The notes beneath the pieces were generated by a model, which was not told the origin of the DNA, made no database searches, and worked only from the letters and a program-made list of their open reading frames with translations. 64,000 nucleotides of DNA from Salinisphaera sp. LB1 (GTDB lineage: Bacteria > Pseudomonadota > Gammaproteobacteria > Nevskiales > Salinisphaeraceae): NCBI RefSeq assembly GCF_003177035.1, contig NZ_CP029488.1, positions 186,001 through 250,000 on the forward strand. Reading direction: 5' to 3'. Positions 33,914 through 64,000 of the stretch are shown here, piece after piece. Made by a program: the position numbers and the translations under genes. How positions within the stretch are numbered: the stretch's first letter is position 1; every line of letters begins with the position of its first letter.

Positions 33914-36154
33914 ATGAGCGACCATTTCTTCGCCACCCATTTTGGGACCTACCGCGTGGATCAAACCCCTGAGGGCCCCCGCCTGTCCGGCTGGCAAGCG
34001 GACCCACAGCCGAGCGGCTTCGGCCTGAGTTATCTCGAGCTCGCCCGGCATCGCTGTCGCGTCGCCCAACCCATGGTGCGGCGCGGCTGGCTTGAAGGGA
34101 ATGCACGATCGATACGCGGCGCCGACACGTTCGTTCCCGTTGCCTGGGATACAGCCACGCAATTCGTCGCCGATGAGATTGACCGAATCGCAGGCAACTA
34201 CGGCAACCGGTCGATCTTCGCCGGCTCGTACGGCTGGGCCAGTGCGGGCCGCTTTCATCACGCGCAAAGCCAGATCAAGCGCATGCTCAATCTGGCCGGT
34301 GGCTTCACCGCGAGCCGACACAGCTACAGCTACGGTACCGCCAGTGCCTTCCTGCCGCATGTCTTTGGGCCGGAGTACGCGGGCACGAACGCCTGTGCCC
34401 CGAGCTGGGATCAGATTGTCGACCATACGGATTGCCTGGTGGCCTTCGGTATGCGCCTGACCAATGCGCAATGTGACCCGGGTGGCGTTGGGCGCCATAC
34501 AGTCGAACAGTGGCTGGGCCGGGCGCTCGATCGCGGCATGCGACTGATCGTGGTTTCTCCGGACGCCGCGGATAGGCCCGAGCACCCGAACGCCGAACAT
34601 CTCGCGATCCGGCCAAACACCGACACCGCGCTGCTGCTGGCCTGTGCCCACGCCTTCATTCGAAACGGCGAGATCGATCAACGGCAAATCCGGCAACTGA
34701 CCACCGGTTTCGATCGGCTGGCCGCCTATGTCAAGGGCGACGCCGATGACGTGGCCAAGACGCCCGAATGGGCCGCGCGCATTACCGGCGCGCGGCCGTC
34801 GCAGATCGAGCGCTTCATCGCGGCGCTGCGCGTGCCGACCAGTCTATTGAATCTCGGCTGGTCCCTGCAGCGGGCAAGCGCCGGTGAGCAGCCTTACTGG
34901 ATGGCGATCGCACTGGCTGCGATGCGCGGCCAGATCGGCCGGCCGGGCGGCGGCTTTGCGTTCGGGCTGGGCTCGGTCAATTCGGTGGGTCAACCGGTGC
35001 GCCGTCTCAAGGCGCCCGGACTCGATCAGGGGCACAATCCGGTGAGCGACTTCATTCCGGTAGCCGCGATCGCCGACTTGCTCGCCAACCCTGGCGGCAC
35101 CCTCGAATACAACGGCCAAACGCTTTCACTGCCCGATATACGACTGGTCTACTGGGCCGGCGGCAACCCGTTCCATCACCACCAGGACCTGAACCGTCTG
35201 CGACACGCCTGGCAGCGGCCTGAAACGATCATTGTTCACGAGCCGGTCTGGACCGCGACGGCACAGCATGCGGATATCGTGCTGCCCTCGACGCTACCGT
35301 TCGAACGCAACGACATCGCCGTATCGAGCCACAACCGGACGATCGTATTCAATCGCGCCACCCATGCACCCTATGCCGATGCCCGCGACGACCATCAGAT
35401 CTGCACAATGATCGCTGACCACCTCGGCGTTGCCGATAAATTTGCCGAGCAGCGCAATACCGAAGATTGGCTGGCCTATCTATACGCCGGCTACCGAGAA
35501 AAATTTCCCGAGTTGCCCGACTATCGAACTTTTCGTCAAAAGGGCATCCACACCCTGGACGATGAACTGGAAGCGCCACGCTCGACGACGCTTCTGGCCG
35601 AATTTGCCGAGGCGCCCGAGGCTCACCCGTTGTCAACGCCCTCGGGTCGCATTGAACTGTTCTCTGAAACGATCGCGAGCTTTGCCTATGGGGACTGCCC
35701 GCCCCATGCAAGCTGGGTTGCCCCCAAAGAATGGCTGGGCGGCGAGCTGGCACAGACCTACCCACTTCACCTGCTTTCTCCACAGCCCGCGAACCGGTTG
35801 CACAGCCAACTGGACGCGGTAGGCGCGAGTCAGCGTGACAAGGTCGCCGCGCGCGAGGCCGCGGTGTTCTGTACCGAGGATGCCATTATGCGTGGAATCC
35901 GCGAAGGCGATACGGTCAAATTGTTCAATGCCCGGGGCGCTTGCCTGGTCGGCGCCACTCTGTCGGAAACGCTGATGCCCGGCGTCGTCATATTGCCGAC
36001 AGGGGCCTGGTATACCCCGGAAGATCCGACGGATTTTGCGAGTCTCGAACTGGCCGGCAATCCCAACGCAGTCACTCAGGATCGGCGGGCTTCCCGGTTG
36101 TCCCAAGGTAGTGCAGCACACAGTTGCCTGGTGGAAGCCGTACGGCACGAATGA
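33914..36154 (+). CDS. Molybdopterin oxidoreductase, BisC/TorZ-like (S- or N-oxide reductase)
   Basis: 746 residues with GTAGGAGG just before the ATG. The sequence follows biotin-sulfoxide reductase and TMAO/DMSO reductases along its length: ATHFGTYRV at the start, FAGSYGWASAGRFHHAQ with the probable molybdenum-ligating Ser110, VYWAGGNPFHHHQDLNRL, ADIVLPSTLPFERND and HPLSTPSGRIELFSE. There is no N-terminal Cys cluster and no twin-arginine signal, so it is predicted cytoplasmic without its own Fe-S centre, like BisC. It would reduce an S-oxide or N-oxide such as biotin or methionine sulfoxide. No cytochrome partner is adjacent; the electron donor is unknown. Confidence 0.85.
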   Translation: MSDHFFATHFGTYRVDQTPEGPRLSGWQADPQPSGFGLSYLELARHRCRVAQPMVRRGWLEGNARSIRGADTFVPVAWDTATQFVADEIDRIAGNYGNRSIFAGSYGWASAGRFHHAQSQIKRMLNLAGGFTASRHSYSYGTASAFLPHVFGPEYAGTNACAPSWDQIVDHTDCLVAFGMRLTNAQCDPGGVGRHTVEQWLGRALDRGMRLIVVSPDAADRPEHPNAEHLAIRPNTDTALLLACAHAFIRNGEIDQRQIRQLTTGFDRLAAYVKGDADDVAKTPEWAARITGARPSQIERFIAALRVPTSLLNLGWSLQRASAGEQPYWMAIALAAMRGQIGRPGGGFAFGLGSVNSVGQPVRRLKAPGLDQGHNPVSDFIPVAAIADLLANPGGTLEYNGQTLSLPDIRLVYWAGGNPFHHHQDLNRLRHAWQRPETIIVHEPVWTATAQHADIVLPSTLPFERNDIAVSSHNRTIVFNRATHAPYADARDDHQICTMIADHLGVADKFAEQRNTEDWLAYLYAGYREKFPELPDYRTFRQKGIHTLDDELEAPRSTTLLAEFAEAPEAHPLSTPSGRIELFSETIASFAYGDCPPHASWVAPKEWLGGELAQTYPLHLLSPQPANRLHSQLDAVGASQRDKVAAREAAVFCTEDAIMRGIREGDTVKLFNARGACLVGATLSETLMPGVVILPTGAWYTPEDPTDFASLELAGNPNAVTQDRRASRLSQGSAAHSCLVEAVRHE

Positions 36155-53002: not shown

Positions 53003-53923
53003 TTATAGCAACGAATCGACGGCCGCCCCTGCGCCGGTGCCGGCCCGCAGGTGCCGCGCCGCGGCGGCCGTCACGGCCTCAGTCAGCGGCGCCATTACCG
53101 TTTCCAGCCGCCGAACGTAATGCCAATCCAGCGGCACGTCGAACGGTGTATCCGCCAGCAGCTCATGCAAACGCCCCGCGGACAAGGCGTCGGCGACCAG
53201 CGCTTCAGGATTGAGCCCCCATCCGACCCCGGCGAGCGCTGCTTCGACGAAGGCGTTGGCCGAGGGCAGGCGGTGGCCGAGGCCCGGCTCCACCGGCGCG
53301 ACATACTGCGCCGCCCAGCGCGCCTGCAGGCGGTCGAGCGTGTTGAACGACAGCGCGGGGGCGGCCTGCAATGCCTGCGCGGTCACGCCGTCCGCGAAAT
53401 GCTGCGCAAGGAACGCCGGCGCAGCCGTCGCGCGATAGCGCAGACGGCCCAACCGCCGGCGGTCGCAGCCGCCCACGGGGTGTGTCTGCGCCGTCACCGC
53501 TGCCATGACCTCGCCACGCCGCAGCCAGTCGGCACTATGGTCTTCATTGTCGATCACCACATCCACGCGCATCGATTGCAGATCGGACAGCGCGTCGACG
53601 AACCAGGTCGCCAGGCTGTCCGCGTTGACCGCCACCCGAACCACCGGCCGAGTGGCATCGGGCGCGGGCACGCCCAGCCGATCGAGCGTATCCCGCTCAG
53701 CCAGGGCCACCGCCTCCGCGTGACGCGCGAGACGCTCGCCGTGGGGCGTGGCCTGACACGGCATACCGCGCGCGATCAGCACCAGACCGAGTTCGTCCTC
53801 CAGACGGGCGATGCGCTGGGAGACCGCGGACGGCGTGACGTGCAGTACCCGCGCGGCCCGCTCGAACGAGCCATGCTGAATCACCGCCAGGAGCGCCGTG
53901 AGCCGCGCCGAATCGAGCTGCAT
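53003..53923 (-). CDS. argP: LysR-family regulator, ArgP-like
   Basis: 306 residues. The N-terminal HTH shows LDSARLTALLAVIQHGSFERAARVLHVTPSAVSQRIARLEDELG, with the ArgP (IciA) match at the start; the substrate-binding domain follows. It is divergent from the LysE/ArgO-type exporter gene with 96 bp between starts, the standard arrangement in which ArgP activates argO on lysine or arginine. The gene symbol rests on this context and sequence similarity by eye. Confidence 0.85.
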   Translation of the reverse strand: MQLDSARLTALLAVIQHGSFERAARVLHVTPSAVSQRIARLEDELGLVLIARGMPCQATPHGERLARHAEAVALAERDTLDRLGVPAPDATRPVVRVAVNADSLATWFVDALSDLQSMRVDVVIDNEDHSADWLRRGEVMAAVTAQTHPVGGCDRRRLGRLRYRATAAPAFLAQHFADGVTAQALQAAPALSFNTLDRLQARWAAQYVAPVEPGLGHRLPSANAFVEAALAGVGWGLNPEALVADALSAGRLHELLADTPFDVPLDWHYVRRLETVMAPLTEAVTAAAARHLRAGTGAGAAVDSLL

Positions 53924-54019
53924 TACATTTTCTTAATTGGCCTCAGTTAATTTAGCTTTCCTGTTGCGGCTCGCGGATGCAAGTTGCTTGTCTTCATCCT
54001 TCGCATCGACCGCCGCCCC

Positions 54020-54619
54020 ATGCCCTTCTACAGCGGTTTCGCTCTCGGCCTCGGACTGATCGCCGCCATCGGCGCGCAGAACGCGTTCGTTCTGCGACAG
54101 GGCCTGGCCGACCGGCATGTGCTCGCGATCTGTCTGTGCTGTGCGCTGTCCGACCTGATTCTCATCACCGCGGGGGTGGCCGGGATCGGCCGCGTTGCCC
54201 AGGCGCACCCGGCCTGGATCATGACGCTTCGCTACGCGGGCGCAGTGTTTCTCGCCGCCTATGCCCTGGCCAGTGCCCGCCGTGTGGCGCTGGGGAACAG
54301 CGGCCTGACGCCCGGCAGGACCGGCGACGCTTCACTTGCACGCACCCTGGCCATCGCGCTGGCGCTCACCTGGCTCAATCCGCATGTCTATATCGATACA
54401 CTGCTGCTGCTCGGCACCGTGGCCGCCACCTACGGCGACCAGCGTCTGCGCTTCGGTGCCGGGGCGATCTGCGCCTCGTTCGTCTTCTTTTTCGCCCTGG
54501 GATTCGGCGCCCGTCGGCTGCGCGGGCTGTTTGCCCGACCACTGACCTGGCGCATCGTCGACGGCGGCATCGCGCTATTGATGGCCGTGCTCGCGGCACG
54601 TCTGGCCCTCGGGGCATAA
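54020..54619 (+). CDS. argO: LysE/ArgO family amino-acid exporter
   Basis: 199 residues from the ATG at 54020; the ORF could begin 12 codons earlier. The protein has about six helices with the family start YSGFALGLGLIAAIGAQNAFVLRQGL and LALTWLNPHVYIDTLLLLG. It exports arginine or lysine across the inner membrane. It is divergent from the ArgP-like regulator, which supports the assignment; whether the substrate is lysine, arginine or both is unknown. Confidence 0.88.
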   Translation: MPFYSGFALGLGLIAAIGAQNAFVLRQGLADRHVLAICLCCALSDLILITAGVAGIGRVAQAHPAWIMTLRYAGAVFLAAYALASARRVALGNSGLTPGRTGDASLARTLAIALALTWLNPHVYIDTLLLLGTVAATYGDQRLRFGAGAICASFVFFFALGFGARRLRGLFARPLTWRIVDGGIALLMAVLAARLALGA

Positions 54620-55987: not shown

Positions 55988-57976
55988 CTACACAATAGCC
56001 AGCACGATGCCCAGGACAGCGACCAGAACACCACCGATCAAAAAGAGATAGAAATTCAGGTGGCCGGACTGCAGGGCCCTGAGCCTCTGACCCAGCCAAC
56101 GCACCAGCCGCACCATCGGGTCGAACAACCACGGCCCGAACACCGGGGCCAGTGCATAGCTGAAGTTGAGCTTTTTCGGAAAATAGCTCGACACTTCGTG
56201 CTCGCTTGAAGAGGTGGCCGTGGGGCGATAGACGAAGCCATAGTAGCGCTGCAAGGCGTTGGCAAACGTCAGCGCAGTGGTCGCACTGCTGGCCGGTTCG
56301 GCGAGGCCGCCGAACCAAATGGGCGCCCGCCTCGGCTTCAGCCGGGCCAGCCCCAGGACCAGCATTGCGGGTATCAGGCTATAAGCGGCAAGCGCGAGCG
56401 CCAGTTTGGTCGGCGATATAAAAGCAAAATCCTTGGCCAGAGGAACCAGTAGCCAACCGCGGCGCATCAAATCGGTAGCGGACGCGCCAAAACGCAGGCT
56501 TGTCGCCGGCCCAAGAGCGTCCAACCACCACGGCATACCGATCGCCAGCACGAGTACGGCGATACCGAGCCAAACCACGTTGACGCCGATCGGCTGGCGG
56601 TCTGGGGCTGTGGGTTCCGGGCGTCCCAGCAAGCCAAGCCCGATGGCTTTAACGAAGGTCGCCACTCCGATCGCACCGGACAGCGCCAATCCGGCCCCCG
56701 ACAGCACCAGGGCAATCCGGGCATTCAAGGTATCCAGACTGAAACCGTGGAACAGGCTCTGGAACCCGAACCATTCGCTGATGAAGCCCGGGGTCGGCGG
56801 TACGGCGGCCAGGCTCAGTGCCGCCAGAAAGGCGCCGGCCGTCATCCAGGGCATCAATCGCACGAGCCCGCCCTGTCTTAACCCGTAGCCGCGACCTGCC
56901 CGAAACGCGGCATCGGACGCCAGCAACAAGCCCGATTTCGCCAATGTGTGACCGGCCATATGCAGCAAACCGGCCACCCAGGCTATGCCGGCGAGGTGAT
57001 CACTACCGTGAAGCTTGAACAGTAATGCCGAACCCGCCAGCGATAAGGCGATTGCTGCATTATCCGCCGAGGAAAATGCCAGCAGACGGCGCCAATCGTC
57101 CTGTTGGAAGGCGTACAGGGCGGCAAGAATCGCGCTGACCACGGCCGCCGCCAGTACCAGCTGCGCCAGACCGGCATGGGCATTACCGCACCAGTCGAGC
57201 AAACCACGCACCAGGGCGAAGTACGCCGCATTCAATACGATGCCGGATAAAATGGCCCCGCTCGCCCCACTGCCGCTGGCATAGGCGTCGGGATACCATT
57301 CGTAGAATGGCAGCAATCCGAGTTTGGCGCCGAAACCGACCAAAAGCAGCAACGCAACGATGAAACCCGGCCAGCCGGACAATGCGAATCCCGAAAAAAC
57401 GGTGTGACCGCTGGCCGCAGTGAACCAGAGCATGGCAGCGAAGAGGGCCACGCTGCCGACTTCCAGCAAGCCCAGCATGAACAGCACGCCGCGCCCACTG
57501 TCCCGATCCGGTTGCTCGGCCAGCAGCATCAGGGCTGCACCGAGACTCATCAACTCCCAGCTGATCAGAAACGCCGTGCCTTCCTGAACGCCGAAAACGC
57601 CGATAGCACCCAGCAGACAGATGGCCACGCCGCTGTACCAACTCGGCCCACGCGCCACCGGCGAATCGGAACACACGGCCGCAAAGGCGCCCAGTGCGCC
57701 GAACAACAGCAGCCACAGCGCGGGGCCATCGAATTTGATCGGCGTGCCGGCAGCGACCGGATTGAACGGTAAATAGCCCACGATCGGTGTCTGGGCAATG
57801 AGCGCTCCGACAACACCCGCGAGCAAGGCGACGAGGCCGGCCAACAGCCCGAGTCTGGCCAACCCACGCCCACCGCGGGCAAAGCCGGCAACCAGAGCCA
57901 CCAGCCAGGCCATTGCTGCGAGGGCGACGAGGGCGACTTCGCCGAAGCCTGTGGTCACAGCGGCATGATCAGTCAT
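55988..57976 (-). CDS. Hyf/Hyc-type proton-translocating membrane subunit (HyfB-like)
   Basis: 662 residues with about 15 membrane helices, of the NuoL/NuoM/MrpD antiporter-like superfamily. Characteristic blocks are SWELMSLGAALML, LGLLPFYEWYPDAYASG (Lys-bearing helix region), DDWRRLLAFSSADN and HTLAKSGLL. The C-terminal extension after about 560 resembles HycC/HyfB. It is the last gene of the Ehr-like operon and overlaps the end of the preceding gene by 8 bp. Together with the other antiporter-like subunit it would couple electron transfer to ion translocation. Confidence 0.87.
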   Translation of the reverse strand: MTDHAAVTTGFGEVALVALAAMAWLVALVAGFARGGRGLARLGLLAGLVALLAGVVGALIAQTPIVGYLPFNPVAAGTPIKFDGPALWLLLFGALGAFAAVCSDSPVARGPSWYSGVAICLLGAIGVFGVQEGTAFLISWELMSLGAALMLLAEQPDRDSGRGVLFMLGLLEVGSVALFAAMLWFTAASGHTVFSGFALSGWPGFIVALLLLVGFGAKLGLLPFYEWYPDAYASGSGASGAILSGIVLNAAYFALVRGLLDWCGNAHAGLAQLVLAAAVVSAILAALYAFQQDDWRRLLAFSSADNAAIALSLAGSALLFKLHGSDHLAGIAWVAGLLHMAGHTLAKSGLLLASDAAFRAGRGYGLRQGGLVRLMPWMTAGAFLAALSLAAVPPTPGFISEWFGFQSLFHGFSLDTLNARIALVLSGAGLALSGAIGVATFVKAIGLGLLGRPEPTAPDRQPIGVNVVWLGIAVLVLAIGMPWWLDALGPATSLRFGASATDLMRRGWLLVPLAKDFAFISPTKLALALAAYSLIPAMLVLGLARLKPRRAPIWFGGLAEPASSATTALTFANALQRYYGFVYRPTATSSSEHEVSSYFPKKLNFSYALAPVFGPWLFDPMVRLVRWLGQRLRALQSGHLNFYLFLIGGVLVAVLGIVLAIV

Positions 57977-58793
57977 CCAGCTGCCCTCCCCGCATATGCT
58001 GTTCGGCCCGCCCGACGATCATCAACAGTGCATGAATCAAGGCGGCGGGATTAGGCGGACAGCCCGGCAAATAGACATCCACCGGCAGGATCGGGTCCAC
58101 GCCGACGCCACTGGCATAAGTGCCGCCGACCGCCCCGCCGGAGACCGCGCAGGTCCCGGTCGCCAGGACCCAACGGGGCTCCGGCATGGCTTCGTAGGTT
58201 GCCTGCAGGGCGTCGCGCATCGCATAAGTCACGGTGCCGGTCACCAGCAGCAGATCGGCATGACGGGGCGATGCGGTAAAAAATATCCCCAGCCGGTGCA
58301 GGTTGTAGAACGGATTGTTGAGCGCCTGCAGCTCGGACTCGCAGCCATTGCAGGAACCCGCGTCGACATGCCGGATATGCAAGCTGCGCCCGAACACGCG
58401 GCGGATACCGGCGGCCAGTTTCTGTTCGGGTGATGCGCCGTCGTCGTTATTGGCATCGGCGTCGGCCGGCCGCCAACGCAGATCGTCGCGCTCGCGCACG
58501 CCCAGCGCCCAGTCGTTGGAAGCGGTCAACGCCCCGGTCGGACAGGCTTCGACACAGAGCTGGCACGCGATGCAACGGCCGTAGTCTATATCGAGCGCCG
58601 GCTCACCGTCGGCCCGAAACTGGATCGCATCCGGCAGACAGACGTCGGCGCATTCGCGACAGCCGTCGCGGCATTTGTCCGCATCGAACCGGGGCATGCC
58701 GAGCACACCCGCCTGGCCATGCGCATCGCCGCGCGCCGGCCAGGCGGTCGTCGCACGCCCGGCGCGCAGTCCGAAAAGAGTCCATAACGCCAT
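57969..58793 (-). CDS. Fused ferredoxin-NuoB-like small subunit (HyfH-HyfI type)
   Basis: 274 residues with AAGGAGG before the ATG. The N-terminal part has two [4Fe-4S] motifs: Cys41, 45, 48, 52 and Cys74, 77, 80, 84. The C-terminal half is NuoB/HyfI-like, with Cys148, Cys151 (DAGSCNGCESE), Cys215 (TGTCAVSGG) and Cys245 (LPGCPPNPA), the ligands of the proximal N2-type cluster. In most hyc/hyf systems these are two genes (HycF and HycG); here they are fused. All cluster cysteines are kept. It passes electrons from the ferredoxin part toward the large subunit. Confidence 0.88.
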   Translation of the reverse strand: MALWTLFGLRAGRATTAWPARGDAHGQAGVLGMPRFDADKCRDGCRECADVCLPDAIQFRADGEPALDIDYGRCIACQLCVEACPTGALTASNDWALGVRERDDLRWRPADADANNDDGASPEQKLAAGIRRVFGRSLHIRHVDAGSCNGCESELQALNNPFYNLHRLGIFFTASPRHADLLLVTGTVTYAMRDALQATYEAMPEPRWVLATGTCAVSGGAVGGTYASGVGVDPILPVDVYLPGCPPNPAALIHALLMIVGRAEQHMRGGQLDD

Positions 58794-58862
58794 GGCCGGA
58801 GCCTCCTTAATCCGTAAAGTGCACGCCCTGCGCTGCTCGGCCCGGATTTGGCATACCGCTAT

Positions 58863-60335
58863 TCATCGGTCGCAACCGGCGATGGTCAGGCCGAAGCTGG
58901 CTTCGTTGATGGCGTAGTCCATGATGTCGCCGCCGTGCATCGTGAACGGGAACACACGCCAGTTGGAAAACGACGGCGACTTGATCTTGACGCGGGCGAG
59001 ACGCCCGGCGGCATCGGTATGCACGGCGTAATAGAGCGACCCGCGGGCGCCTTCGACCCAGCCCAGCCCCGCGCCCAGGGCGGGCACCGTCAGGTCGGTG
59101 CGGACGGGCCCGTCCAGATTGAGCCGAGCGAGACGCTTGACCATTTCGAAGCTCTGCTTGAGTTCCGCCGCGCGCACGCGAGCGCGCGCCAGGGCATCGC
59201 CGCGATCGTCGGTGGGAATCTCCAGCGGGATATCGAGATACATCGAATACGGATGATCACGCCGTAGATCGCGGTCGAGCCCGGAGGCGCGTTCCACCGG
59301 GCCGGTCGCGCCCTGGTCGTAAGCGACGTCACGCGACAACACACCCGTCTCGATCAGGCGATCCATATAGCTCGGCGTGGATTCGAGATGCTGCAGATAC
59401 TCGGCTGCCTCATCGGCCAGCGCCCGCACGTCGCCCAGTACATCGCCATCGAGCGCCAGATCACGCCGTAGCCCGCCCGGGACCACGATGCCGCGCAGAA
59501 AGCGGCTGCCCGTCAATTTCGCATTGATCTGCTTGGCTTTTTCTTCCAGCAACCGGCCCTGCGCATCGCCGACATACAGCGTCGTGGTGCTGGCCAGATG
59601 CGCGAAGTAATGCAGGTGGTTGTAAATTCGCTCCAGTTCGCCGAGCAGCGTCCGTATCACTTCGGCGCGCGGTGGTATCCCGGCATCCGCCATCGACTCG
59701 ATCGCCCGGCAGTACGCCCAGGCGTGGGCGAAACTGCCTACCCCGGAAACCCGCTCGGCCAGTACCGTCCCCAAGTCAGGCGCCACACCTTCAAAGCGTT
59801 TTTCCAGCCCCCGATGCTTGAAGAACAGGCGCGGCTGGTAGTGCAGGATGGACTCGCCCAGGTAATAGAAAATGAACTGGGCCGATTCCATGACGTCGGC
59901 GCGCACCGGTCCGAACGGCAGGCGCTGCACATCGCCATTGGCGGCGATTTCCGGCGCGTGCCATTCGCTGCGCTCGAAGGTCAATGCCTGGCCCCGCGGG
60001 TGCGCCGGTTCCATCGGCGGATGTTCGGAACTTGCGCCTTCGTGCAGCACCAGAGGCGCCGATTGCGGCATGTCGTCGATTTCGAGCGCGAACAGATCGC
60101 GCATTTCGCGCTCGTACCAGCTCGCCAGCGGCACGATATCGGCCACGCTCGGCAGGCGTCCGTCGACAGGCTTGCAGCACCACATCTCGAACGCCCGGCC
60201 TTTCGCCGGCGCGCACAGATACCGCACCTCGAGTTCGTCGTCGGCATCGCGCCATGCGTAGATCATCTGCAGGCGTCCCTGGTCCCGCACAAGCTGCTGG
60301 CAGCGCGCCCGCAGCGCGTCGGCCGGCACCGTCAT
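58863..60335 (-). CDS. HyfG/HycE-like large subunit lacking the NiFe ligands
   Basis: 490 residues from the ATG at 60335 (GGAG eight bases upstream); a GTG at 60353 overlaps the previous stop. An N-terminal NuoC-like domain (about 1-130) precedes a NuoD/HycE-like domain. Where NiFe hydrogenases have RxCGxC, this protein has ERVSGVGSFAHAW (Ser197-Gly-Val-Gly200), and the C-terminal DPCxxC is absent; the sequence simply ends AGCDR. It cannot hold a NiFe centre. It fits Ehr-type complexes, and the KHRGLEK block of the fold is retained. The catalytic function is unknown. Confidence 0.88.
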   Translation of the reverse strand: MTVPADALRARCQQLVRDQGRLQMIYAWRDADDELEVRYLCAPAKGRAFEMWCCKPVDGRLPSVADIVPLASWYEREMRDLFALEIDDMPQSAPLVLHEGASSEHPPMEPAHPRGQALTFERSEWHAPEIAANGDVQRLPFGPVRADVMESAQFIFYYLGESILHYQPRLFFKHRGLEKRFEGVAPDLGTVLAERVSGVGSFAHAWAYCRAIESMADAGIPPRAEVIRTLLGELERIYNHLHYFAHLASTTTLYVGDAQGRLLEEKAKQINAKLTGSRFLRGIVVPGGLRRDLALDGDVLGDVRALADEAAEYLQHLESTPSYMDRLIETGVLSRDVAYDQGATGPVERASGLDRDLRRDHPYSMYLDIPLEIPTDDRGDALARARVRAAELKQSFEMVKRLARLNLDGPVRTDLTVPALGAGLGWVEGARGSLYYAVHTDAAGRLARVKIKSPSFSNWRVFPFTMHGGDIMDYAINEASFGLTIAGCDR

Positions 60336-60349
60336 GTACTCGACTCCGT

Positions 60350-61825
60350 TCACGAGCCCCCCTTCGCAACCAAAGCGAACAACGCATGCAACGGCGCCGG
60401 CCACCACAGACCGAACACCAGCAACGGGATGAAGGCCAGCCACATCGCCAACACATTGGTCCACGGCAGGCGCCGCACACGGTCGGCGCCAACCGCGCCG
60501 GGCGCGGCGTCGGATTCGTCCGCCGTGTAGTACATGCGCCGGAAATGATCGAGAAAACCGATGAAGATCACGATCAGCAACACCAGCATGATCGCCACCG
60601 GCGCCGGCCAGTCGCCAACCCAGCCGGCGCGCAGCGTGGTGAATTCGCTCACGAACAGGCCGAACGGCGGCGCGCCGGTGATCGCCACCGCGCCGGCCAG
60701 CCACAGGGCCCCACCAACGGGTGTGAGCCGCAAAATCTGGCGGATCCGGCTCATGTCATGCGAGCCGAACAGCAAGCCGGCATTGCCGGCGCCGAAGAAC
60801 ATCAGCGACTTGTTCAACGAATGGTTGAGCATGTGGTAGCAGGCCGCGGCCACGCCGAATACGCCACCGAAACCGAAACCCAGCGCCACCACGCCCATGT
60901 GCTCGACGCTCGAGTAAGCCATCAAACGCTTGGGATCGCGCTGGCGCACGATCAGGAGGGCCGCGACCGCGAGCGAGAGCAACCCGAGCGCCACCAGTAC
61001 GCCGTGCGAAAGCCGTGTCAGATGCGCCGCATCGGCGATACGCAGCCCGCGCACGATGCCCACCATCGCGGTGTTCAGCAATGCGCCCGACAGCATCGCC
61101 GACACCGGCGTCGGACTCTGGCTATGCGCGTCCGGCAGCCAGGTGTGCATCGGCGCCAGGCCGACCTTGGTGGCATAACCGGCCAGGATCAGCAGAAAGC
61201 CGAGCGCCATGAGCACCGGATCCGCCCTGGCAGCCGCCGCGCCAAGCGCCGCCCAGGTCATGTCGTACCGGGCCCCGTATACGAAGGTGCCGGCCCAGTA
61301 CCAGAACACCGTGCCCAGCAGCGCCAGCGTAATACCGGCCGATACGATGATCAGATATTTCCAGGCCGCCTCGGTGCTTTCGGCCGAACGTTCGAACCCG
61401 ACCAGGAACGTGCTCACCAGCGTCGTCAACTCGATCGAGATCCAGTACAGCCCCGGCTTGTTCATGGCCGGCGCAATAAACATGCTGAGCGCGAAACCCG
61501 CGAATAGCGCGTAAAACGCCCACAGGCGGTCATGATCCGCTTCGGCGCGCATGTAGCCCAGCGCATAGATCGAGGCCAGCAGATACACCACGGCCACACA
61601 GAGCAGCACCCAGCAGGCAAGCGGGTCGAGCAGCACATAGCCATGCCAGAGCGCGCCTGCATCGGCGGCGGTTGTGGCCACCAGCCCGATGGTGGCGCCC
61701 AGCGAGGCCACCGCCGACAGTAGATTGATCCACTCGGACCACCGCGCGCGCCGCAGCGAAAGCGCCACCAGAATCGCTAGCGCCGGCGCGCCGAGCGTGA
61801 TGGCATAACAGATCGTCTGGCTCAT
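60350..61825 (-). CDS. Hyf/Hyc-type membrane subunit (HyfF-like)
   Basis: 491 residues from the ATG at 61825, overlapping the HyfE-like stop (ATGA). It is another NuoL/M-type antiporter-like protein with about 14 helices: PGLYWISIELTTLVSTFLVGFE with the key Glu, LILAGYATKVGLAPMHTWLPDAHSQSPTPVSAML with the Lys, and HMLNHSLNKSLMFF. These charged residues form the ion path in complex I relatives. It lies between hyfE-like and hyfG-like genes, and its stop overlaps a GTG of the latter. Confidence 0.88.
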   Translation of the reverse strand: MSQTICYAITLGAPALAILVALSLRRARWSEWINLLSAVASLGATIGLVATTAADAGALWHGYVLLDPLACWVLLCVAVVYLLASIYALGYMRAEADHDRLWAFYALFAGFALSMFIAPAMNKPGLYWISIELTTLVSTFLVGFERSAESTEAAWKYLIIVSAGITLALLGTVFWYWAGTFVYGARYDMTWAALGAAAARADPVLMALGFLLILAGYATKVGLAPMHTWLPDAHSQSPTPVSAMLSGALLNTAMVGIVRGLRIADAAHLTRLSHGVLVALGLLSLAVAALLIVRQRDPKRLMAYSSVEHMGVVALGFGFGGVFGVAAACYHMLNHSLNKSLMFFGAGNAGLLFGSHDMSRIRQILRLTPVGGALWLAGAVAITGAPPFGLFVSEFTTLRAGWVGDWPAPVAIMLVLLIVIFIGFLDHFRRMYYTADESDAAPGAVGADRVRRLPWTNVLAMWLAFIPLLVFGLWWPAPLHALFALVAKGGS

Positions 61826-62502
61826 CCGCGCAGCCTCCGCAGGTCCAGGCTGCTGGTGCTGCCCACGTGGGTGACGAGGTAGCGGGTGAGTACGCCGAAA
61901 CAGGCGACCGCCACCAACAGATCGAACAGAATCACCAGTTCCAGCAACAGCGGCATGCCCGGCACGAGAATCTGCGAGCCAAGAAAGATGCCGTTTTCCA
62001 GTACCAGCAGGCCGAGGATCTGGCTCATCGCTTCGTGCCGGACCGAGAGCATCAGAAAGCCGATCAGCTTCATCGACAGCATGACCGTCAGGGCAAGCAG
62101 AACGACCGTGTCCGGATGCGCCAGACTGGCGCCGATATGCTCGGCCACCGCCAGCGCCAGCAGCACCAGCGCCGCGCCAATCACGAGCGCCGAGGACGGC
62201 TTGATGATCTCGTGCAGTTCGCGGTCCACGCCCATGCGCCCGGTAATTCGCCAGAGCAGATACGGCAGCGCCAGACCCCGGAACAACGCGGTCAGCGCCG
62301 CCACCAGGTACAACTCGGGATAGCCGCCGTAATAGCCGACCGCTGCGGACAACAACGCGATCAGCCAGCACTGCCCGGTATAAGCCAGCAGATAGTTCTG
62401 CAGCCAGCGCGAGCCGAGCATGACGAACACCAGGATCAAGCTGGCGATTGCCAGCAGGCTGAACAATGAGGTGGCCAGCGGGGTGAATTGAAGAGAGTTC
62501 AT
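61822..62502 (-). CDS. Hyf-type membrane subunit (HyfE-like)
   Basis: 226 residues from the ATG at 62502. It has about six helices and a NuoK-like part: ALTVMLSMKLIGFLMLSVRHEAMSQILGLLVLENGIFLGSQIL, with the Glu of LLVLENGIF conserved in NuoK/HyfE. The length matches HyfE. It is the second gene in the operon, 10 bp after the HyfC-like gene, and overlaps the next by 4 bp. Confidence 0.85.
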   Translation of the reverse strand: MNSLQFTPLATSLFSLLAIASLILVFVMLGSRWLQNYLLAYTGQCWLIALLSAAVGYYGGYPELYLVAALTALFRGLALPYLLWRITGRMGVDRELHEIIKPSSALVIGAALVLLALAVAEHIGASLAHPDTVVLLALTVMLSMKLIGFLMLSVRHEAMSQILGLLVLENGIFLGSQILVPGMPLLLELVILFDLLVAVACFGVLTRYLVTHVGSTSSLDLRRLRG

Positions 62503-62512
62503 GGACCCACCC

Positions 62513-63457
62513 CTAAAACTGCTGCGCCACGATGCCAAGCACCGCCAGTAAAAAGGACGCCGCCAGCGGTTCCTGGTAACGGAAGAAACGCAACCGGGCC
62601 TGCGCCGTCTCGACCACGATGACCGCCAAGGCCACGACACCGAACTTGATCGCGATCGCGCCGACCGCCCCGGCCTCGCCGACGAGCGTGCCGACATGCG
62701 ACAACCCCCAGGGCAGCGTGAGCACGTTGCAGAAAATGGTGTAGAGGATGAATTGCTTCATCATCGAAGCCCAGCGCGCGAAGGCCATCAGCGGGCCCGA
62801 GTATTCGAGCGTGCGCGCCGCGCCGATCATGTAGATCTCGATATCGGTGCTGGAGTGGATCGGCAGCCGATCAGTCTCAACCAGCAGCAGCACGAAGAAC
62901 GCACAGACAATGAAGATATGCGCCGGGCTGAAGAACACCGGCCAATGGCCGGCCAGCAGATGATTAACCGGAAACGGCAACATCGTGTGCGCCAGCAGCG
63001 CGACGCCGGCCAACACCAGGATCAGCGTGGGTTCCGACAGGATGCCGAGCATGGCCGAGCGGCTCGAGCCGATGCCGCCATAGGCGCTGCCGGTATCCAG
63101 GCCGGACATCATCAGCATGAACGAGCCGATCGACAGCACCATGCCGCCGCCCAGAATATCGCCCATGTCGGACTGCGGCAGCGGGAAATCGGTGAGCACC
63201 GGAATCAGTATCGGCACGATGCACATGGCCGCGAACGCGACCACCGGCGTGATCAGATAGACGAACGACGCCGACTCTGGAATCACCAGTTCCTTATGGA
63301 ACAGCTTCCACAGGTCGCGATAGGGCTGGATCAGCGACGGACCGGTCGCGCGCTGGACGCGCTCCTTGCCGCGGAGAATGAACCCCTCAAGCAAAGGCGA
63401 AAGCAACAACGCCGCCAGCACCTGTCCAATTTGCGAGACCACATCAGGCAGACTCAC
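62513..63457 (-). CDS. Hyf/Hyc-type NuoH-like membrane subunit (HyfC/HycD-like)
   Basis: 314 residues from a GTG at 63457, with AAGGAG about 7 bases upstream. It is the NuoH/HycD family: SPLLEGFILRGKERVQRATGPSLIQPYRDLWKLFHKE at the start and VETDRLPIHSSTDIEIYMIGAARTLEYSG later, the Glu-rich region that contacts the peripheral arm in complex I. It has about eight helices. It is the first gene of the six-gene operon; a palindrome at 63531-63551 lies 74 bp upstream. Confidence 0.9.
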   Translation of the reverse strand: MSLPDVVSQIGQVLAALLLSPLLEGFILRGKERVQRATGPSLIQPYRDLWKLFHKELVIPESASFVYLITPVVAFAAMCIVPILIPVLTDFPLPQSDMGDILGGGMVLSIGSFMLMMSGLDTGSAYGGIGSSRSAMLGILSEPTLILVLAGVALLAHTMLPFPVNHLLAGHWPVFFSPAHIFIVCAFFVLLLVETDRLPIHSSTDIEIYMIGAARTLEYSGPLMAFARWASMMKQFILYTIFCNVLTLPWGLSHVGTLVGEAGAVGAIAIKFGVVALAVIVVETAQARLRFFRYQEPLAASFLLAVLGIVAQQF

Positions 63458-63530: not shown

Positions 63531-63551
63531 CCTATCTTGCGATCAGATAGG
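63531..63551. promoter_or_regulatory. Inverted repeat upstream of the Hyf-like operon
   Basis: CCTATCT and AGATAGG form perfect 7-base arms around a seven-base centre, 74-94 bp upstream of the HyfC-like start. This could be an operator for a dimeric regulator. No regulator gene is adjacent in the window. Confidence 0.45.
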
Positions 63552-64000
63552 AGTCATTAGCCGATGTCGGCGGTTCGAGGCGAACTCCATCGCCTGTGAT
63601 CGTCTGGCCGCATCAACTATTCGCTATTCGCACGGCGCTGTCAATCGCCGATAAACGCCGACGCTTGCTTTGCAGCATCAGAACAATAAGCCTCGTTATC
63701 ATTCGCTTTCGTCTCACGATCGGCAAATATGCGCGCATGGAGCTGGCACCCATACGGGGGACGCGACGGCCGTTCCGGCTGTATTCGATGGGTGCTGACA
63801 CCAGCCTCGAACACCCGTGCCAGGTCGTAGAAACTCGGGATCGTTGGTCTCCGGCCGGGCGATCGAGCGCCTGTGATGCCCCGGGGGTCACGCTATCGCG
63901 CGGACAATGACATCGCGAACCGAGCCAACGGCCCACGCTCGATCGCTCAGTGGCCAAATTCCCAGTACTCGATGGTTCGGCGTATACAGAACACGTGTAG
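63552..64000. other. Stretch with no supportable gene
   Basis: About 450 bp with overlapping unconvincing frames on both strands (for example 63596-63910 plus and 63613-63957 minus). Neither has a recognisable family. The part near 63640-63760 is somewhat AT-richer than the flanks. A gene cannot be excluded past the window edge. Confidence 0.4.

Follow-up and report, generated by a model that had tools for sequence, protein, structure and literature searches.

The genome of Salinisphaera sp. LB1 carries a six-gene operon that is predicted to encode an energy-converting-hydrogenase-related (Ehr) complex without a nickel-iron (NiFe) site, and a fluoride riboswitch precedes this operon on the same strand. 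The DNA analysed, hereafter the window, is a stretch of 64,000 nucleotides (bases 186001-250000 of the LB1 genome, a single contig of 4,141,708 bases), and the operon occupies positions 55988-63457 on its minus strand. Four features can be read from the DNA itself: the putative NiFe-less complex, the riboswitch, the conservation of the riboswitch at related operons, and a neighbourhood of crcB and a DUF190-type gene. We consider it probable that the complex is a fluoride-inducible, redox-driven proton pump, which would expel the H+ that enters with hydrogen fluoride (HF) while CrcB expels F-. Such a role would join two puzzles—what triggers Ehr complexes, and why fluoride riboswitches accompany genes named 'formate hydrogen lyase'—and the Ehr complex would thereby gain a likely inducer and a testable phenotype, fluoride tolerance at low pH.

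Salinisphaera sp. LB1 (CP029488) is a halo-acidophile that originates from an acidic salt lake; its source is Lake Brown, Western Australia, and it was enriched at pH 4.0 with 5% NaCl (PMC6256560). An earlier note on this DNA had proposed six minus-strand Hyf-like genes at 55988-63457, and the open reading frames together with Pfam and NCBIfam matches bear this out; neighbouring genes overlap or are closely spaced. The coordinates given there leave out the regulatory region at 63541-63644. In the direction of transcription, the features are as follows.

Contig 251054-251120, minus strand: second fluoride riboswitch, belonging to crcB (RF01734, 50.8 bits).
Contig 250258-250779, minus strand: crcB, by similarity to an annotated plasmid protein (53% identity).
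63947-64000, continuing to contig position 250261, minus strand: DUF190-type gene (104 aa in all, 3' part in the window), by similarity to a plasmid protein (34% identity).
63616-63644, minus strand: promoter-like site TTGACA-N17-AATAGT, a consensus match only.
63541-63603, minus strand: fluoride riboswitch aptamer (RF01734, crcB motif; 62.4 bits).
62513-63457, minus strand: HyfC/NuoH-like membrane subunit, operon gene 1 (GTG start, AAGGAG ahead of it; Pfam NADHdh).
61822-62502, minus strand: HyfE-like membrane subunit, 226 aa from an ATG start (no Pfam match; a single NCBIfam match, 'hydrogenase 4 membrane subunit', E 1.5e-13, under its cut-off).
60350-61825, minus strand: HyfF-like antiporter-type subunit, 491 aa (Pfam Proton_antipo_M).
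58863-60353, minus strand: HyfG-like large subunit, fused 30 and 49 kDa parts, without NiFe cysteines (Pfam Complex1_30kDa and Complex1_49kDa).
57969-58793, minus strand: HyfH/HyfI (HyfHI) fusion of a ferredoxin-type domain (8 Cys) and a 20 kDa domain (4 Cys) (Pfam Oxidored_q6 and Fer4).
55988-57976, minus strand: HyfB-like antiporter-type subunit, final operon gene (Pfam Proton_antipo_M).

The riboswitch in the operon's 5' leader matches the full RF01734 model (positions 1-64) with 62.4 bits against a gathering score of 34 (E 1.4e-14; Rfam; L004:5542-5604), and 83 bases separate it from the GTG start of the HyfC-like gene. The promoter-like site stops 12 bases ahead of it—one such site was found, against a mean of 0.1 in shuffled sequences—and a consensus scan of the leader found no terminator hairpin. 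Two fluoride riboswitches in all were found in the LB1 genome, at most 1.6 kb apart; read 5' to 3' on the minus strand, the order is second riboswitch, crcB, DUF190-type gene, the operon's riboswitch and the operon. The nuo operon of LB1 has no fluoride riboswitch. The earlier note had called the substrate of the complex undescribed in this lineage; the riboswitch 83 bases upstream, which also lies in the window, links the complex to fluoride stress.

The large subunit is where the complex departs from hydrogenases. Its first NiFe motif reads ERVSGVGSFAH, against DRVCGICGFAH in E. coli HycE, ERMCGICSFSH in Pyrococcus membrane-bound hydrogenase (MBH) and PRMDYLHSFAH in Thermus Nqo4, so that Ser and Gly occupy the cysteine positions. 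Counted from the GTG start at 60353, these residues are Ser203-Gly-Val-Gly206; the earlier note had named the same residues, as Ser197 to Gly200, a numbering that holds from the ATG at 60335. The C-terminal tail, ASFGLTIAGCDR, has no CxxC, in keeping with the earlier report that DPCxxC is absent. Realignment with HycE, MBH and Nqo4 restores no ligand: after removal of 25 duplicates from 92 rows, CxxC is missing from the first motif in all 67 distinct large-subunit rows (12 of them NuoD), and from the tail in the 66 rows where the tail is visible. A loose scan finds one CxxC elsewhere in three of the 67 (L014_3873, L042, L063), none at ligand columns. The possibility of a second large-subunit gene was also checked, and searches of the one-contig LB1 genome with PF00346 and NF033181 return the HyfG-like protein and NuoD only; HypD, the sole Hyp maturation protein searched for, gave no match in the genome.

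Family searches, the PDB sequence search and the predicted structure agree that the core of the large subunit is of the hydrogenase/complex I type. The best PDB match by sequence is E. coli formate hydrogenlyase subunit 5 (HycE), which is also the top fold match of the predicted structure (TM 0.85 on the query; mean pLDDT 80.6, with residues 98-180 below 50). Gly stands in place of the Tyr that Nqo4 has in DYLH, whereas the His in KHRGLEK is kept; we take this Tyr and this His to be quinone-site residues of the complex I 49 kDa subunit. Because the NiFe motif cysteines are gone, and HypD and a further large subunit were not found, the LB1 complex is, as judged from its predicted proteins, not a NiFe hydrogenase.

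The electron-transferring and membrane parts are largely intact. All twelve cysteines that the earlier note had placed in the HyfHI fusion were located (41, 45, 48, 52, 74, 77, 80, 84, 148, 151, 215 and 245), and they are kept in 9/9 clade A relatives examined—clade A being the LB1 clade defined below. Charged residues that we presume, from what is known of complex I, to take part in pumping are likewise conserved: E141, K218 and E401 of HyfB in 10/10 relatives examined, K225, K304 and E399 of HyfF in 12/12 (numbered from the frame starting at 61840), and E142, E194 and E218 of HyfC in 9/9.

Ehr complexes are defined by a group-4-like large subunit without NiFe ligands (PMC6349859, PMC10284858), and redox-driven charge translocation has been suspected for them (PMC6349859); here and below, papers other than PMC6256560 are cited from partial text. 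By the published definition the LB1 operon is a predicted Ehr complex: its core is homologous to group 4 hydrogenases and complex I, the Ni- and Fe-binding residues are gone, and the membrane subunits are antiporter-like. It differs from them in that a signal is indicated, the fluoride riboswitch, and in that its clade stands apart from 25 NiFe-less rows of another group. The earlier note had proposed an Ehr-type redox-coupled ion pump; the Ehr type holds and most pump residues are kept, and the proposal was incomplete in that it considered the coding block only. With E. coli formate hydrogenlyase and hydrogenase-4 the complex shares subunits like HyfC, E, F, G, H, I and B, with HycE the best PDB match; however, it lacks both CxxC motifs of group 4 hydrogenases, its H and I subunits are fused, no formate dehydrogenase lies within the operon, HypD was not found in LB1, and HyfA and HyfD were not recognised among the operon frames. 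With complex I (NuoB, CD, H, I and L/M/N) it shares the common core and the charged residues, but not the DYLH Tyr, and it has only two antiporter-type subunits; a reading by eye of frames inside and next to the operon, together with Pfam matches of the six proteins, recognised no NADH module (NuoE, F, G).

The riboswitch is conserved along with this type of complex. In a tree of 61 large-subunit rows (near-identical rows are counted apart throughout), clade A comprises 17 rows, group B 12 rows and L087, and group C 25 rows, with 6 of the 12 NuoD rows kept; support is 100/100 for clade A, 100/99 for group B and 100/100 for group C. The long-branch row L087, from Alicyclobacillus, falls with group C at 90/68, and its placement is unsure. 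A same-strand fluoride riboswitch lies upstream in 17/17 clade A rows, 16 of them above the Rfam cut-off and G062 below it (29.6 bits); the 17 are made up of 14 genome-search rows (13 above the cut-off and G062) and three plasmid loci above the cut-off. Among the 13 rows of group B, 9/11 scorable ones have an upstream riboswitch (8/10 leaving out L087), the Terriglobia contig L011 included; the count omits L009, whose contig starts inside the operon, and L041, with about 280 upstream bases and no switch in them. A further group B copy, in G127, is absent from the tree and has a riboswitch of 43.3 bits. No riboswitch was found near the gene in the 24 scored rows of group C, where 'no' means no match near the gene on the same contig, and a switch cut off by a contig end may have been missed in some rows; six group C genomes (G073, G220, G221, G238, G332, G427) have an above-cut-off riboswitch on another contig. 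The clade-wide riboswitch search of genomes was run with stricter Infernal filters, and 5/6 Nuo rows in the tree come from genomes searched for the riboswitch.

Within the genus, 14 genomes yielded a type A operon only in LB1 (G000) and a type B operon only in G002; these same two are the only ones of the 14 with any fluoride riboswitch. Across a phylum sample, 57/398 genomes (LB1 included) have an above-cut-off fluoride riboswitch, and no Hyf-like gene was found in 60 regions downstream of them (search to E 10; best E 0.22, noise), which cover 61/63 above-cut-off riboswitches outside LB1, some regions ending at contig ends. The switch thus seldom controls Hyf-like genes, yet clade A and most group B genes carry it. 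Operons of both groups stand side by side in five Acidithiobacillus records (L007, L008, L010, L012, L013) and in the metagenome-assembled genome (MAG) L014; in L007, L008, L012 and L014 each of the two has its own fluoride riboswitch. On a plasmid of Alicyclobacillus sp. ALC3, a lone large-subunit gene (L087:7702-9404, about 32% identical) stands directly behind a fluoride riboswitch.

The neighbourhood also points to fluoride. A crcB or CLC gene is present in the fetched flanks of 12/15 clade A loci: LB1, G041, G127, G443, the Acidithiobacillus loci L072/L007, L074/L008, L076/L010, L077/L012 and L013, the Burkholderia plasmids L084 and L085, and Caballeronia L086 (CLC only); the clade A loci L064 and L071, on contigs of about 5 kb, were left out of this count. 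In a Rhodanobacter MAG, a riboswitch, crcB, a DUF190 gene and then hyf-like genes follow one another on one strand. On L084 and L085 (Burkholderia multivorans and B. cenocepacia) the operon lies among genes for inorganic diphosphatase (ppa), enolase (eno), MutS, CLC, CrcB, DUF190 and cfa, and the 31-kb stretches hold 9 and 10 fluoride riboswitches; fluoride is known to act on both enolase and pyrophosphatase (PMC11139923). With the known fluoride-riboswitch regulon (crcB, CLC-F, eno, ppa, mutS and 'formate hydrogen lyase') the LB1 operon shares both switch and neighbours, and differs in that the member resembling 'formate hydrogen lyase' is NiFe-less in every switch-linked row examined. The same 31-kb stretch also holds MutS-like, dynamin-family and HAD genes that have no obvious place in fluoride stress. 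Several relatives come from presumably acidic places—Acidithiobacillus and the sulfidic-cave Rhodanobacter MAG, beside LB1 at pH 4. An acidophile-specific operon was considered and rejected: Burkholderia and Caballeronia plasmids carry the operon, and habitat is not assignable for all relatives.

How such a pump might work can be sketched from its subunits. The cytoplasm is acidified when HF enters, CrcB-type export is driven by the membrane potential, and among riboswitch genes Na+/H+ antiporters rank directly behind exporters in frequency (PMC11139923). Rising F- would allow the riboswitch to permit expression of the operon. The two ferredoxin-type clusters of HyfHI would be the entry point for electrons, perhaps from a ferredoxin-like donor, and the electrons would then reach the cluster beside the large-subunit pocket, a site with neither NiFe ligands nor the quinone tyrosine of complex I. 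From there they might leave to an acceptor, most likely a quinone; donor and acceptor are guesses from the subunits, and the quinone-site tyrosine is gone. The two formate dehydrogenases encoded elsewhere in LB1 could feed the complex. The energy released would drive proton export through HyfC, HyfE, HyfF and HyfB, which would remove the H+ arriving with HF and re-establish the membrane potential on which F- exit through CrcB depends; jointly, complex and CrcB would amount to HF export. In acidophiles the membrane potential is small or inverted at low external pH, and for this reason a CrcB channel alone would work poorly, which fits the halo-acidophile host. The underlying physical idea is a simple one: H+ and F- are exported together.

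Other readings of the same operon have to be weighed. By the account that the literature gives of the association, the operon would encode a formate hydrogenlyase or hydrogenase-4 that is turned on in a fluoride-triggered shift to fermentation. The match to HycE by sequence and fold suits such an enzyme, formate hydrogen lyase is listed as a fluoride-riboswitch gene (PMC11139923, PMC8004769, PMC2864571), and two formate dehydrogenase alpha genes in LB1 score above the curated cut-off; although formate is thus possible as an electron source, both genes are 1.6 Mb distant. We regard the hydrogenlyase reading as extremely improbable, as the cysteines for NiFe are missing in the first motif of 67/67 rows and in all 66 visible tails, and HypD was not found; a NiFe hydrogenase identity as such is already refuted by the missing ligands. 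In the window itself, a 749-aa frame at 34058-35461 (plus strand) gives a partial formate dehydrogenase alpha match (117.8 bits, cut-off 666) and is probably another molybdopterin oxidoreductase. For Acidithiobacillus hyf clusters that lie close to genes for carbonic anhydrase or carbon fixation, an inorganic-carbon or CO2/pH device has been proposed: the A. caldus hyf genes adjoin a beta carbonic anhydrase gene (PMC3826726), and A. ferrooxidans AFE2149-54 (PMC2621215) is numbered adjacent to cbbM AFE_2155 (PMC6458275). This reading is highly improbable for LB1, where no RubisCO was found in the genome and no carbonic anhydrase was noticed by eye in the neighbouring frames, without a dedicated search; the link to carbon fixation was set aside on the missing RubisCO.

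Two further readings keep the fluoride signal and change the work done. As a complex I bypass with similar chemistry, from ferredoxin to quinone, the complex would sustain respiration when fluoride-blocked enolase cuts the NADH supply, rather than expel HF-borne protons. Fluoride does inhibit enolase and deplete lower glycolysis (PMC11139923), enolase and pyrophosphatase genes share an island with the Burkholderia operons, and an NADH module was not recognised; nevertheless, two antiporter-type subunits and a NuoH-like one with most charged residues intact argue for energy coupling, and a fluoride exporter is the most frequent neighbour, so that we hold a bypass to be rather unlikely. The complex might instead move F- or HF itself, as a primary redox-powered extruder whose antiporter-type subunits carry F- coupled to H+. 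The fluoride switch in every clade A row would suit this, as would the three loci (L067, L068, L070) without crcB or CLC in their fetched flanks. However, the charged residues are of the proton-channel type and crcB is near at most loci; we know of no precedent for fluoride movement in the complex I family, and we judge the reading very unlikely. If true, it would describe the first redox-driven fluoride pump; none was known before, to our knowledge.

A proton pump that works beside CrcB remains the reading we prefer, and several observations weigh against it. A normal complex I is present in LB1, which leaves the need for an additional pump to be explained, and no gene for an electron donor or acceptor was recognised within the operon. 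HyfB has an Arg (R296) at a position that is Lys in NuoL, M and N, and 9/12 relatives carry Asp in place of one conserved HyfF Glu. The flanks of L067, L068 and L070 are the clade A exceptions in the crcB/CLC count, and the near-identical group B rows L010 and L013 are those without a switch. In the HyfHI fusions of group B (L070, L072, L074, L077, L081), four of eight ferredoxin-type cysteines, belonging to one cluster, are missing in 5/5 rows, with a fluoride riboswitch at 4/5 of these operons; since the switch is mostly kept where the cysteines are lost, electron entry may differ. For L087, no membrane subunits are annotated in the 50 of 137 kb viewed, and this locus is hard to read as a pump.

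Parts of this picture are already in print. A Hyf-like cluster of A. ferrooxidans without a hydrogenase-type catalytic subunit has been described, with no fluoride link in the text available (PMC7735108). A link between the crcB motif and 'formate hydrogen lyase' was stated in 2010 (PMC2864571) and repeated in 2021 (PMC8004769) and 2024 (PMC11139923), the 2024 review reading it as part of a metabolic shift. Among the matches listed, mostly open literature, no publication joins Ehr complexes with fluoride riboswitches, which does not prove novelty, and the Ehr literature found gives no trigger in its available text. For the LB1 operon, as its predicted large subunit reads, the label 'formate hydrogen lyase' is wrong; the fluoride-linked genes at the loci examined are putative NiFe-less complexes, which would be unable to make H2 by NiFe chemistry. 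Public plasmid records label clade A members 'nickel-dependent hydrogenase large subunit', and labels of this kind would be corrected.

Elsewhere in the window, at 53003-54619, genes for a LysR-type regulator and a LysE-type exporter are divergent and, judged by eye, argP/argO-like.

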